Of a stretch of 64,000 nucleotides of DNA, positions 3,813 through 63,800 are shown piece by piece (the first letter of the stretch is position 1; each line of letters begins with the position of its first letter). Under the pieces are notes generated by a model. That model made no database searches. It saw only the letters and a list, made by a program, of their open reading frames with translations, and was not told the DNA's origin. Source of the DNA: a virus; the IMG/VR virus record IMGVR_UViG_3300046694_000136, positions 1 to 64,000 of that record. One strand, written 5' to 3'. A program made the translations under genes and the position numbers.

Positions 3813-4010
3813 ATGGGTAATAGCAAATCGCTGCAAGACCGTATTCAAGAAATCCAGAAACACTGCATCGAGTATCACGTCGATCTGGATATGACATTTG
3901 ATCCGGTCAATGAAATGTGGACTGGTTACGACCAGGACCAAGAGCTGACCGAACCTTGCGATAGTTTCGAGGGTTTGGTAGAGGCGCTCGAGGCCACGTT
4001 CGAACTGTAA
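3813..4010 (+). CDS. Small acidic hypothetical early protein (65 aa)
   Basis: ATG 3813 follows AAAGGGGAGTTTC, so it is preferred over TTG 3792, which would overlap the upstream gene. The protein is strongly acidic (YDQDQELTEPCDSFEG). Small acidic early phage proteins are sometimes DNA mimics or inhibitors, but nothing here proves that. Function unknown. Confidence 0.7.
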   Translation: MGNSKSLQDRIQEIQKHCIEYHVDLDMTFDPVNEMWTGYDQDQELTEPCDSFEGLVEALEATFEL

Positions 4011-8044: not shown

Positions 8045-10873
8045 TTAACTGAAGATAGAAAAGACCCCAATAGGGGAACGTGGTTTGAGCGGAAAGGTGT
8101 ATTCTTCGTCCTGACTGATTTGATACATTTCAGTCCCGGCTACGTCACCGAAGATGTTGTGATCGTTCTCCTTGGTGAGGAGTGCATCCACTTGCTCTCT
8201 CGACCATTCCATGATGTTGATGCTTCGAGTGGTGATGTTGAGTTTATCTCCGGTATCCAAGTTCAGCAGTTTGAAGAAGCACGGCGAGTCTTGGCCGACC
8301 CGTACTGTACGAGCAACAATCTGTTTCATCTCATGTTCACGGAACGGAGAGTCAAGCAGAATGGTCAAGTTAGCCATGACCAACGGGTACCCTTCTTTGA
8401 GCGACTGAATCACTGCAACCAAAGGGTTAACACGAGGGTTATCCCGGAAGCGATCGATGTTAGCGTCTCGCTCTTTGGAGTTCTCTCCGTATACCGTGAT
8501 TGGGTCAAAGCCTTCCTTGATTAAGTACTCGTTACACATTGCCATCGATTCAACGTATGAAGTGAAGATCAATGTCTTCTTCTCCACACTATTGATCATC
8601 TCGGGAATACCGGCGTGAGCAATGAGATCTTTGATGGCGTTGATACGAGCACGACCCAAGACGTTACCGAGCGCTTCACCACGGAGTTTAAGGCCGAGGT
8701 ACTTCACAGCAGACTTCACGTTACGGAACTCTTTCAAAGCGTTGCCTTTCAGATCCGCTTCAATACGTTCTTCAACTTGCTTACAGAACATGCTGTCAGC
8801 AGAGTCAGTGAAGGTGCTATACCCAACAGTCCTGAACCGGTGCACGATCTCCTTATAACGCAAGAGATCTCCCATAGCGCGAGGGTCTTTACGGTTGGCT
8901 TGTTCGTACGACAGAATCACTTCGTTGTAGAACGCTAAGAACTCCGGCATGTGTCTGGTGTAGAAATCAATCCGCTCGCTGATATAGATCTGCATCTGCA
9001 AACGAATAGCGTCCAGCGTGTACTGATCGCCGTTAGGGATCTTCACGTTAACCAGTTCAACCGGCGGAGCGTCAGGTATTCCTACCAAGTCGCCAATGGT
9101 GAACTTACTTCGGCCAATACGCATAGCCAGCAGATCAGTCATTGCAGGACGGTTCTTACCGTACGACGCCAAGAAGGTATCACGAACTTTCCCTTTGAAG
9201 AAGCGGTCGATCAGACAGAGGACTGGATAGATCTCACTACCCATCGCTTTCAGCGGGGTGCCCGACATTGGCAAGTAGTGCCCGAAGCACTTGGTATCAG
9301 CCCAATCAATCAATCTCCTTGTTCGGGCAGCCTTCATCTCGTTGAAGTTGTGACACTCGTCGATGATGAGTTTACACTCTCCCTTATGCTTCTTGTTGAG
9401 CTCTATCAGGAACTTCTGAAGCTGAGCACCTGCACCGGACATCATGTAGTCATAATGCACGATGTAGTAGTCGTAACCTTCCGTAGGGAGAGTCCCTAGA
9501 AGACTCGTCCAGACCTTTGGAGCCTCTTTGTAGTGCAGAGGTAGTTCCGTTACCCAAACCTTGTTAACGATGTTCATAGGGCACAGGACGACCGTAGGTG
9601 CGTCGTTAAGCAGATGACTCCATGCAATCGACGTAAAGGTGTTGTGAGTAACGACGTAATCATCTACAACGTACAGACTGTCCTCACTGTCGATTGAGAT
9701 ACACAGGGTCTCTTCTGACTCACGTTGTTCATAGCTCACGATATCCAATCGCAGAGCTTTATTGTCAGGACCGTCCATATCCACGAAGTACTGCGCAAGC
9801 ACGTCTGAATCACGATGCTTGAAGCTAACCTCGTAACGGTTCCCGGTCTTAACCGGAGGATGGGCAATACCACCTGTGCTCCACATCAGTCGTCTGAAGT
9901 TCTCTGCGGCCACAGCGCAACCTGTGTAGAAATAGAGTCCCTCGTCATCAACCTTGAGCGATCCTTGCCAGATCATTTCCTTGATCAGGTCGAAACGGTT
10001 CTGGTATGAAAGTTCTAATACTGACTCATCAATACTTTGTCCACTCGTAAAGAGATCCTGTGCCAGTTGGACTATGTTTGAATATACAGAGCGGTGCGTA
10101 GCGCCATCAATCTTTGTAACCAGAGGGATGGAGTACTTGAAGTCGTCGAAGTGGTTGATGATGTCCTGAGTCGTAGTAACCTGAGGTCCCACAGCGTGAT
10201 CATCATGAGTCTCAACAACTTCCCACTGGTGATCTGGGTGAGAGTCAGCAGTCCGCCCATCGGCAAAGGTGAAGCGATAGACAGCAGTAACACCTTGCGG
10301 GTAGATTCCTACTATCGTTGCTATTCTACCGTTAGGAGTGATGACTTTCCCACCTTCCTTCAAATCCCCTAAACGGGTCCAGCCACCCGGTGTCTTCACT
10401 CGGGTACTAAGCGGCATGGCTTTACCGCTACCGGCCTTGGCATCCAACAGCAACCCATCCAAATGGTAACTGTAGGTAATGACTGGATACTGTTCGAGGA
10501 ATTCCAGTTGTTTAGGGAATGGGGTGGTCTTGAACGCCTTCAACCGTTTCATGTCGAATGGCTTGCCGGACATATTAATAGTGTCCTTAACCCAAGTGTT
10601 CAGCTCGATCTGTTCCTTGAGTTCGTTAAGCTTACGACGATTACTCCGGAGGTTCTTGATTTTCAAGAGTGCTATCAAGATATTCCGCAATTCCAGCAAG
10701 TAAAACTTCTGTAGTTTTACCGTGTCCCAAGTTTCTCGCTTTACCTGATGCTTTGTAATCAGAGAAGTGTTGTAGAACTTCTCAATGTCTTTGGCCAAAT
10801 CATAGTAGGACACCCCCATGATTTGAACCATCTCCCCTAGATCTTTAATGCTGACAGAAAACAAATTAAACAT
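8045..10873 (-). CDS. SF2/SNF2-like helicase interrupted by an intein (942 aa precursor)
   Basis: Leftward ATG 10871-10873 with AAAGGG upstream. The mature extein (682 aa after splicing) has superfamily 2 motifs: Walker A AGSGK-T split by the intein (K151 | T412), Walker B DECH (D505-H508), motif III MSGTP, and a motif VI-like QIVARTVRVGQ (R855). The DECH box and ending resemble SNF2/RAD54-type DNA translocases. It probably acts in phage DNA replication, recombination or transcription remodelling. Residues 152-411 are the intein, described separately, so the ATPase site is broken until splicing. The N-terminal 115 residues are helical and specific to the phage. Divergent from the gene at 10900, with only 26 bases between. 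Confidence 0.9.
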   Translation of the reverse strand: MFNLFSVSIKDLGEMVQIMGVSYYDLAKDIEKFYNTSLITKHQVKRETWDTVKLQKFYLLELRNILIALLKIKNLRSNRRKLNELKEQIELNTWVKDTINMSGKPFDMKRLKAFKTTPFPKQLEFLEQYPVITYSYHLDGLLLDAKAGSGKAMPLSTRVKTPGGWTRLGDLKEGGKVITPNGRIATIVGIYPQGVTAVYRFTFADGRTADSHPDHQWEVVETHDDHAVGPQVTTTQDIINHFDDFKYSIPLVTKIDGATHRSVYSNIVQLAQDLFTSGQSIDESVLELSYQNRFDLIKEMIWQGSLKVDDEGLYFYTGCAVAAENFRRLMWSTGGIAHPPVKTGNRYEVSFKHRDSDVLAQYFVDMDGPDNKALRLDIVSYEQRESEETLCISIDSEDSLYVVDDYVVTHNTFTSIAWSHLLNDAPTVVLCPMNIVNKVWVTELPLHYKEAPKVWTSLLGTLPTEGYDYYIVHYDYMMSGAGAQLQKFLIELNKKHKGECKLIIDECHNFNEMKAARTRRLIDWADTKCFGHYLPMSGTPLKAMGSEIYPVLCLIDRFFKGKVRDTFLASYGKNRPAMTDLLAMRIGRSKFTIGDLVGIPDAPPVELVNVKIPNGDQYTLDAIRLQMQIYISERIDFYTRHMPEFLAFYNEVILSYEQANRKDPRAMGDLLRYKEIVHRFRTVGYSTFTDSADSMFCKQVEERIEADLKGNALKEFRNVKSAVKYLGLKLRGEALGNVLGRARINAIKDLIAHAGIPEMINSVEKKTLIFTSYVESMAMCNEYLIKEGFDPITVYGENSKERDANIDRFRDNPRVNPLVAVIQSLKEGYPLVMANLTILLDSPFREHEMKQIVARTVRVGQDSPCFFKLLNLDTGDKLNITTRSINIMEWSREQVDALLTKENDHNIFGDVAGTEMYQISQDEEYTFPLKPRSPIGVFSIFS
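9641..10420 (-). mobile_element. Class 3-type intein in the helicase Walker A motif (260 aa)
   Basis: Precursor residues A152-N411 separate GSGK from T. Visible intein features: N-terminal block AMPLSTRVKTPGGWTRLGDL, then VYPQG-like GIYPQG, block B with H64 and W66 (intein numbering, SHPDHQW), block F with C240 (TLCISIDS), and the end VVTHN with T258, H259, N260 followed by Thr. Ala at position 1 cannot start the usual N-S shift. W66, C240 and T258 match the WCT set of class 3 inteins, where the block F Cys acts first. Precursor residues 290-337 look like a decayed second half of a LAGLIDADG endonuclease, with no catalytic Asp. Confidence 0.9.
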
Positions 10874-60810: not shown

Positions 60811-63800
60811 ATGTCTACTGAAACAGATGAAGACTATAATCGGTTATTAGAGTTTGCTACCAAAGTCAAGAATTACCTTGGGGTTACCAATCTCACCAAG
60901 AAGTTAGTAGACGACAAGCGCCTCCGTATCGACTCGGAAGCGCGCAGTGAAGAAGAAACCTTGATGGCGCATTTCAAGGAAGACAGTTTGTGGGGTATCA
61001 AAACCGCACGCTTCCTGAAAGACTTCCATCTGTACAAAGCTGCGCCGGACATGGACACGAAGAACGAGTCCTTTCTGCGTACAGCAGAGATCTTCCGGTT
61101 ACAGGGGATCAAGAACTATTACTTTATCCTTCAGCTGAATAACCCGATGTTGAAAGGGGTGGATCCTCACGCTCCTGATTTGACAGATCTTCAGAAGACC
61201 ATGATCGCTAAGGAGTCCAAAGAGAACTTCTGGTATTTCCTGCGAGAAGTGTGTCGGATTAAAGGCGGTATGCCGTTCTTGGCTAACCGCGGTAACGTCA
61301 GTTTCATGTGGTCTTATCTGAACCACGTTACCACGCACATGATCATGCCTCGTCAGCAAGGCAAGCCGCAACCTGACAGCAGCGAGATCCGTGTTATCCC
61401 TGATGACCCAGCAACCGCCAAGTCTGCTGACTTCTGGAAGAAGATGGGTCACATGAAGGTCGGTGACGTGGTCATGGATCAGAAGGGTGAACCTGCCAAC
61501 GTGATTGGTGTTCACCCTCAGGGTAAGATCCGGGTCTACCGTATTACTGGTAGTGACGGTCGTTCTACTGATGCAGGGGTTGGTCACCTGTGGACCATGA
61601 AGAACTCGCTGGACAGCATCAATGATCGTGGCCTGTGGAGTGAGTACACCACGGCTGACATGATTCACTTGTTGAAGCAGAAAGCTGTTCTGCAATTCCC
61701 ACTGGTAGAACCAGAACTGGGTGTTAAGCGAGATCATGCAATCGATCCATACGTCATGGGTTTGATGGCTACGGCCAGAAACACCAACGGTGGTCTTCAG
61801 TTCAATGTCCTCAACGATGCGCAAGCTAACTACGTTGAAGCTAACCTGCCTAAGTACACCCGTCTGACTAAAGGTAAGGGTGAATGGACCTTTGCTCGTG
61901 ATGACGGTAACCCGATTACGTTCGATAAAGAAGTAGGACTTCCCGCTGCCTACTTGGAAGGGGCTCTGGAAGACCGTATAAGCCTCCTGCAAGCGTTCTG
62001 TGACAACCGGGGTATCATTGGCGATAAGAACGTCTACATCGCTGTAAACCGTGCTATCGGAGCTCAGCTGAAATATCTGGTACGTGGGTTGGGCGGTACT
62101 GCTGCTAACAAAGGCAACGGTATCGTCATTACACTGCCGGAAACCATCCCTTACTTCAAGACCCGTGAACAGGAACGTCCGGTTAATGAGGTGAATGCTC
62201 TGTTCGTTAAGTCGATCAAGTATCTGTGGGAAGAGAAGTCTACCTGCATTGAGATTGACTCTTCGGAACACTTGTACGTTACCGATGACTTCATGGTGAC
62301 CCACAACACGGTGTCGGTTCAGGTCATTAACTTCTGGCTGACCTACATCATGGGTCGAGGGTATACATCTCACCTCATTACCCTGAAGAGTGATAACCGG
62401 GCTCAGTTCGTCAACGCCATTAAGACGATCCGTAGCAGTATTCCTAAGTTCTTGGTTAACTCGACCTATAAGGACAAGGACGCTGGTACATCGTTAACGT
62501 ATAAAGCGTTTGGTGAGGATCAGGTTAATACCCTGTACATCAACGTTCCGCAACAAGGGGCTGACGCAGCAGGCGACTTGGCACGTGGTCTGACAGTAGG
62601 TTCTGGTTGGTACGACGAATCAGCGTACATCAAGTACATCGACTTGATCATCGACGGTTCTGGTCCTTCCATGCTAACCGAGATGGCTGTATGTCGTTCT
62701 AAAGGCCTGCCACACGGGATCAGTCACATCACAACACCGAACACAACGCTGCACCCAAGTGGTCAGTTCATGTTCAAACGTTTGATGGACTCTACCGAAT
62801 GGCGAGAGAAGTTCTTTGACTGCTTCAGCGAGTCCGATCTGCATGACAAGCTGATTAAAGCGTCTCCAGTCGAAACCACGTCTCCTAAACTGGCGATGGT
62901 GTATAACTACCTCCAGCTGGGTAAAGACAAGGACTGGGTGAAGTGGGTTATCGACGACCTTAACTTGAGTAAAGCTAAGGCCAAGATCGACTTGCTGTTG
63001 ATGTGGGTGGAAGACGGGGAGAACCGGTTGTTTGATGACCAGACCCGTGAAGCCATTAACAACATGAAGCGGGACGTAGTGTGGAGCAAAGAGTACAAGG
63101 ACTTTAACCTTTACATGGACTTCTTTGTTACACAGAACGAACTGGCTGAAATGTGCGCGAAGTCTTACAACGACTTCTTCTTGATCGGTTGCGATACTTC
63201 CTCCGCTATCAACAAGGACGCCTGCACCATCGTAATCCGCAGTATGAAGACTGGTAAGGTCGTTGGGGTAGGTCGATACGCTCTTACCTATCTGGACCAC
63301 GTAGCGAGCATCTTGGTGGACTTGCTGGAATGCATTCAGAACAGTATCCTGATCCCTGAACGCAACTATGCTCACCACATGATCGATACGCTCCTGATCA
63401 CGCTGCCTGCTAAGGGTATGGATCCATTCACCCGGATCTACAACACGGTCTACAACGACACGGTTGGTCACGAGAAGGAGTACGAAGAAGTTAGACGTAC
63501 TGGGTTCGCTACTCGTAGCAAGAACTTCTACCTGAAGTTCAAGCAGCACTTTGGGTTCCTCACCACAGGTACTTCTCGTAAGACACTTTACGGGTTGATC
63601 ATCGAAGCGGTAGGGAACACGGGTTATGGGTTGGCGTACAGCAAGCTTGCGGATGAACTGATTAACCTGCGGCTTAAGGCAGACCGGATTGACCACGACT
63701 CTAAGCAACACGATGACTTGGTTATTTCGTGGCTGTTGAGTTACTGGTTCATTAAGCTGGGGATGAACAAATCGCTATACGGGATTCCTCCTGGACTGGC

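Follow-up and report, generated by a model that had tools for sequence, protein, structure and literature searches.

Class 3 inteins carry Trp at B:12, Cys at F:4 and Thr at G:5, and both this signature and the mechanism that goes with it have been defined (PMC5222942). Splicing is proven for the DnaB-1 intein of M. smegmatis (PMC5222942, PMC6195587), in which Asp at B:7 lies close to Ala1 and the scissile bond (PMC6195587). For the Snf2 intein of Deinococcus radiodurans, a branched F-block intermediate has been demonstrated (Brace et al. 2010), according to the passage of PMC3196547 that cites this work. Class 3 inteins in DnaB P-loops (PMC6195587) and various inteins in terminase P-loops (PMC5050341) are already known, and a catalogue from 2020 lists 1701 class 3 inteins, 82.5% of them with LAGLIDADG motifs (PMC7891396).

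In this work, we describe an insert in a helicase gene that lies within the first 64,000 nucleotides (the window) of a virus record of 234.5 kb, IMGVR_UViG_3300046694_000136. We assign a probability of about 0.93 to the reading that it is a cis-splicing class 3 intein in the Walker A motif of a conserved jumbo-phage SF2/SNF2 helicase, once mobile and now inherited vertically. It represents a well-resolved class 3 case in jumbo phages, in which empty, endonuclease-bearing and endonuclease-dead alleles are found at one orthologous site. The helicase site is already occupied in related phages; no description of it was found in the open-access literature, where a search for inteins in phage EL or phiKZ-like phages returned nothing specific. 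A paper by Tori and Perler in 2011 is reportedly the key one on the phage origin of class 3 inteins.

Host gene and class 3 signature of the insert

The helicase gene (8045-10873, minus strand) matches Helicase_C in Pfam (E 4.6e-10) and the DNA helicase family phrog_62 in PHROG (E 2e-102), and a putative ribosome binding site, AAAGGGA, lies 8 nt upstream of its ATG. The helicase is an orthologue of gp166 of Pseudomonas phage EL, and its closest cultured relatives are EL and near kin. Since the gene neighbourhood also resembles that in phage EL, and a phage RNA polymerase beta subunit gene is present elsewhere in the window, the source is a jumbo phage of the phiKZ/EL type. The features of the locus are as follows:

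8045..10873, minus strand: intein-containing SF2/SNF2-type phage helicase precursor gene, 942 aa (Helicase_C and phrog_62 matches)
10421..10873, minus strand: N-extein, helicase residues 1-151, with Walker A GSGK as its last residues
10421..10432, minus strand: Walker A GSGK codons, immediately 5' of the N splice junction (from the sequence and empty-site orthologues)
9641..10420, minus strand: class 3 intein, 260 aa, A1...THN260 (from signature residues, relatives and model)
10223..10240, minus strand: block B with H61 (B:7), H64 (B:10) and W66 (B:12)
9785..10084, minus strand: homing endonuclease remnant, one LAGLIDADG half, residues 113-212 (from model helices and strands and a degenerate motif)
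9701..9703, minus strand: block F Cys240 (F:4), predicted initiating nucleophile
9641..9649, minus strand: block G T258-H259-N260 (G:5-G:7)
9638..9640, minus strand: +1 Thr codon; its Thr would act as nucleophile for the second branched intermediate and become the P-loop Thr once the helicase is spliced (from the sequence and the definition in PMC5222942)
8045..9640, minus strand: C-extein, 531 aa, opening with the +1 Thr of Walker A

The first-pass annotation had proposed that a 260-residue insert of class 3 type, with A1, W66, C240 and T258-H259-N260, splits GSGK^T of an SF2 helicase. The insert is indeed in frame and exactly delimited, each of these residues is found at its numbered position, and the class 3 type is borne out by a complete signature and a class 3-like predicted fold. 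The intein begins AMPLS and ends VVTHN, and the C-extein continues TFTS; the helicase minus the insert, that is, the predicted spliced product, has 682 aa.

Position 1, which in class 3 inteins is not Cys, Ser or Thr, is Ala in this intein and in all 15 members of the clade that contains it and phage EL (the EL clade). The class 3 residues W66 (B:12), C240 (F:4) and T258 (G:5) and the general intein residues H64 (B:10), H259 (G:6) and N260 (G:7) are invariant over 19 jumbo-phage inteins and over 15/15 of the clade, and the F:4 Cys is found in 188 of 188 inteins in the survey described below. The +1 residue, which is Ser or Thr in class 3 inteins, is Thr.

In the empty-site orthologue of phage Joad, the sequence ...LLLDAKAGSGK^TFLSLIWS... 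runs without a gap exactly at the proposed junction. The intein-free GSGK^T is found at this exact position also in RisingSun, pTD1 and others, related Erwinia phages being among the empty ones, and inteins occupy the same site in the helicases of EL, VP4B, FishSpeaker, CF8 and SL2. The whole insert can be aligned to the EL intein (41% amino acid identity, E 9e-55); such alignment with inteins at the same site in EL and others argues that it is an intein and not a chance insertion.

NCBIfam and Pfam searches did not name the intein; in particular, Pfam scores for Hint and LAGLIDADG domains in the helicase-intein sequence stayed below the cut-off. The best single-sequence match in the PDB was 6bs8 (E 3e-6), and class 3 DnaB inteins came first among the PDB sequence matches, with the class 1 intein gp41-1 also near. 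In a tree built without class 1 or 2 inteins, the helicase intein is nested among 128 inteins with the class 3 signature. A recent horizontal origin was considered on the basis of composition and is unsupported, the GC content being 0.494 in the intein and 0.476 in the extein. As judged from its sequence and predicted fold, the insert is a genuine class 3 intein; this identification is secure but ordinary, the chemical class being already known.

Endonuclease remnant, distribution and selection

The intein was modelled with AlphaFold2 from an alignment of 21 helicase-site inteins (pLDDT 93, pTM 0.90). In comparisons by VIA-align, the splicing core of the model matches the class 3 M. smegmatis DnaB intein 6bs8 with Z 19.9 and rmsd 1.6 over 123 residues at 28% identity, and the whole model matches PI-SceI with Z 20.2, where 256 of the 260 residues are aligned. 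The two marks of an intein, a Hint fold (here a predicted one) and a precise intein-free allele, are both found at this site.

Residues 113-212 are confidently predicted to form one alpha/beta LAGLIDADG half. The first half is missing, and the motif of the remaining half reads IKEMIWQGS, as against LQGLMDTDG in active-looking relatives, so that the catalytic acid is gone. A mobile LAGLIDADG element has two motifs with catalytic acids, which this intein does not have, and a mini-intein is a core of about 130-150 aa with no endonuclease domain, whereas this one comprises 260 aa with a folded half remnant. Its motifs and model indicate that the helicase intein is endonuclease-dead but not minimal. 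No match to LAGLIDADG_3 (PF14528) or HNH (PF01844) was found in the whole 234.5-kb record. At the same site, the FishSpeaker intein has both LAGLIDADG motifs intact (LMGVLLGDG and LLQGLLDTDG), and the VP4B intein lacks the motifs seen in FishSpeaker. The DTDG sequence is kept in loci L164, L176, L166 and L187, of which L164 resembles FishSpeaker in having its endonuclease motifs intact, and in none of the 15 EL clade members.

A tree of 63 helicases, 26 with an intein and 37 empty, requires about 10 changes of state, at least 9 of which are forced by well-supported branches. The EL clade is uniform, in that all 15 helicases are occupied, each with a dead endonuclease motif, and its nearest outgroup is the empty Risingsunvirus pair (SH-aLRT 90 for the join). 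Together with the three kinds of allele at the helicase site, a dead element fixed in a clade of 15 makes the homing cycle and the persistence of non-mobile inteins accessible to splicing assays. In each of the other 14 clade records, one or more additional class 3 intein matches are present, and nearly all of these records have such a match in an ORF that, at about 1.1 kaa, is as long as the terminase ORF. The Vibrio phages pTD1 (L138, empty) and VP4B (L003, occupied) have close helicases, and a recent gain or loss lies between them. The union of all helicase-site inteins into one clade was rejected at a borderline level (AU p=0.044), and the helicase site may accordingly have been invaded once or several times.

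Selection was estimated by the pairwise Nei-Gojobori method inside the clade, separately for the splicing domain, the remnant and the exteins. The dN/dS values range from 0.05 to 0.12 in the exteins, from 0.03 to 0.12 in the splicing domain and from 0.09 to 0.33 in the remnant, all of them rough because several dS values approach or exceed 1; extein dS between the window and L122 is saturated. Among pairs with an estimate of dS for exteins and splicing domain alike, the ranges are 0.05-0.12 and 0.03-0.10, respectively. Low ratios in the exteins and the splicing domain are expected if both must function. Amino acid change is fastest in the remnant, yet far below neutrality. The dead remnant is under purifying selection, where the ratios indicate constraint and not its cause.

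Position B:7 is His (H61) in all 15 clade inteins, giving HPxHxW, and in none of the 173 others, which have mostly Cys, Gly, Asp or Thr; Cys is the commonest in the survey. This His is a departure from the characterised M. smegmatis DnaB-1 intein with its Asp, and it counts against the main reading insofar as it may affect splicing. A conserved redox pair C168-C240, corresponding to Cys48-Cys118 of M. smegmatis DnaB-1, was also considered and rejected, since C168 varies even among the clade members. The added interest of the locus is fixation without an endonuclease, together with the clade-specific HxxH; any function of either would be a candidate one.

The terminase intein and the wider class 3 family

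A second class 3 intein lies in the terminase large subunit gene of the window:

61366..62307, plus strand: terminase class 3 intein, 314 aa, GK^PQPDSS...VTHN^T

A start at 61327 was rejected as 13 residues too early; note that some record searches with the terminase intein used the longer stretch from 61327. The intein starts with Pro (QQGK^PQPD), as do 3 of the 188 surveyed inteins, which would make Lys-Pro its N-terminal scissile bond.

The helicase and terminase inteins are homologous (24% identity and E 1e-16 by tblastn). The first-pass annotation had described their C-terminal segments as nearly the same and concluded that the two share ancestry. The quoted segments are present, but only 14 of 23 positions are shared, so that the likeness was overstated: 14/23 is the median for the helicase intein against the 173 class 3 inteins outside the clade, 94 of which match its C-terminus as well or better. 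In trees of the splicing domain, the helicase intein falls among inteins of the helicase site (99/96 for 2 rows, 100/99 for 10 rows), within a wider group of 14 rows, one from another gene (95/96), and the terminase intein groups with the terminase-site inteins of EL, L111, Joad and FishSpeaker. Forcing the two window inteins to be sisters costs 74.8 log-likelihood units (AU p=1.9e-9). Common ancestry was to be given up if a tree placed the two in unrelated groups; the groups are different but related, and what stands is homology at the depth of the class 3 family, whereas sisterhood is rejected. Because each intein clusters by site and the C-terminal similarity is a median one, the ancestry that the two have in common is the one uniting the entire class 3 family, and the sequences speak weakly for any common origin with the terminase intein beyond that large family.

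Loci from three collection scans, together with phage records, yielded the 188 distinct inteins of the survey, all of which have the class 3 Cys and Thr. Of these, 181 follow immediately on a GK dipeptide, a count slightly biased toward GK by the snapping of starts to GK within six residues where present; all 188 end in THN followed by T or S, an end motif biased by the scan pattern (VTHN and similar). The host proteins, assigned by motif only, include DnaB, SbcC-like, Clp-like, SNF2-like and terminase proteins, and class 3 inteins of the present type are thus found repeatedly in GK^T/S of many unrelated P-loop ATPases. When IMG/VR was scanned with the window intein as the sole sequence, no relative was confirmed, the back-translated patterns being too specific, and this was remedied by an alignment-based scan.

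Several other loci of the survey have features of their own. For example, L073, L075 and L078 (near locus position 4001) contain P-loop inteins of the form GAGK^CQPLTC... with Cys1 as well as the class 3 residues, and these may represent intermediates between classes 1 and 3 or inteins with a dual mechanism. L100 and L103 each consist of one ORF, about 1.2 kaa long, that holds a class 3 intein in a P-loop (GCGK or GSGK) and a second one at a non-P-loop site after GFLPG. Phage EL has four class 3 inteins (L019, L036, L027 and L032), in the helicase, the terminase, a 1037-aa ORF and a 776-aa helicase-like ORF, and the one in the 1037-aa ORF has intact-looking LAGLIDADG motifs. Such phage inteins often go without annotation or are masked by the label 'DarB-like antirestriction', which RefSeq gives to diverse intein-bearing phage proteins, namely helicases, terminases, a primase-helicase and 'gyrA' (NC_007623.1 gp166, NC_070650.1, NC_042100.1, NC_070936.1, NC_048709.1 and NC_071007.1). 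Since what these proteins have in common is a class 3 intein, the label looks like an annotation error spread via the intein.

Proposed mechanism, alternatives and known systems

We infer that the intein splices, that it does so in the order of steps given here and that the helicase depends on it. Cys240 (F:4), activated by His64 and Thr258, would attack the Lys151-Ala1 bond to form a first branched thioester; a triad matching C240, H64 and T258 has been seen in M. chimaera DnaB1 (PMC7664689). The +1 Thr of the helicase would then take over the N-extein to form a second branched intermediate, and cyclisation of Asn260 with the help of His259 would release the intein. An acyl shift would finally join GSGK to T, restoring the P-loop in a 682-aa helicase. 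Since the insert parts the catalytic Lys from the Walker A Thr, the precursor is expected to have no ATPase activity until it is spliced. The element would formerly have been mobile through LAGLIDADG homing, and in this lineage the first endonuclease half would have been deleted and the second would have lost its catalytic acid. With the endonuclease lost, homing of its own would no longer be possible and transmission would be vertical.

Recent mutual copying of the helicase and terminase inteins, by intragenomic transposition between P-loops, could account for their common class, their common GK^T target, the 24% identity and the similar C-terminal segment; given that each falls among inteins from the corresponding site in other phages, and given the AU test against sisterhood under the model used, we find this scarcely credible. 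It is also very improbable that the insert is a splicing-dead intein pseudogene in a helicase that either functions with the insert in place or is not needed. A precedent is Arth_1007, described as a class 3 intein pseudogene (PMC3196547), but it lacks Cys F:4 and His B:10, whereas here every catalytic residue is present and none varies among the 15 divergent clade members, and the exteins are under strong purifying selection although an unspliced insert breaks Walker A.

A domesticated switch is another explanation to be weighed: the endonuclease-dead intein would be kept because conditional P-loop splicing delays or gates helicase activation in infection, and the folded remnant and/or the H61-x-x-H64 pair would sense the condition. 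We regard this explanation as unlikely, even though the intein is retained in 15/15 clade members without a functional endonuclease, the dead remnant is both constrained (dN/dS 0.09-0.33) and confidently folded in the model, and the B:7 His is unique to the clade and invariant in it. In mycobacteria, class 3 P-loop DnaB inteins are redox-responsive (PMC6195587), and zinc inhibits DnaB splicing (PMC7360933). However, the constraint on the remnant can be explained by the need to fold and not to poison splicing, exact intein loss is rare anyway, and no conserved redox pair was seen, Cys168 not being conserved. The corresponding evolutionary claim, that a phage lineage has recruited a homing intein as a permanent regulatory component, with the half-domain and HxxH selected to time the activation of a P-loop helicase, seems to us decidedly unlikely as well. 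We retain the reading of a cis-splicing, formerly mobile and now vertically inherited class 3 intein.

Among known systems, the intein of Pseudomonas phage EL gp166 (NC_007623, 169186-169971, 262 aa) occupies the same GSGK^T site of the same helicase, with A1 and the Trp-Cys-Thr triplet, and it likewise has no first LAGLIDADG half and a dead second half. The EL intein has 41-44% amino acid identity to the helicase intein of the window, and EL differs in having two further class 3 inteins that are absent from the window's record, and the EL record carries no intein annotation for gp166. The helicase inteins of Shewanella phage FishSpeaker and Aeromonas phage CF8 share the helicase, the site and the class 3 signature, but they are longer (355-358 aa) and B:7 is not His; CF8 keeps at least the second LAGLIDADG motif.

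The M. smegmatis DnaB-1 mini-intein (6bs8) and M. chimaera DnaB1 (6rix) have the class 3 residues, a helicase host and the same Hint fold (Z 19.9 and 18.9), and the former, like the phage helicase intein, is located in a P-loop. In contrast to the 260-aa phage intein, they have 139-145 aa, no endonuclease domain and a DnaB-family host, and the B:7 motif is DxxH in M. smegmatis and HxxH in the phage intein. The class 3 intein of D. radiodurans Snf2, likened here by description, is also hosted by an SNF2-family helicase, although by a bacterial gene. The Hint plus LAGLIDADG architecture of the phage intein is shared with PI-SceI, which has class 1 chemistry (Cys1), two LAGLIDADG motifs and an active nuclease.
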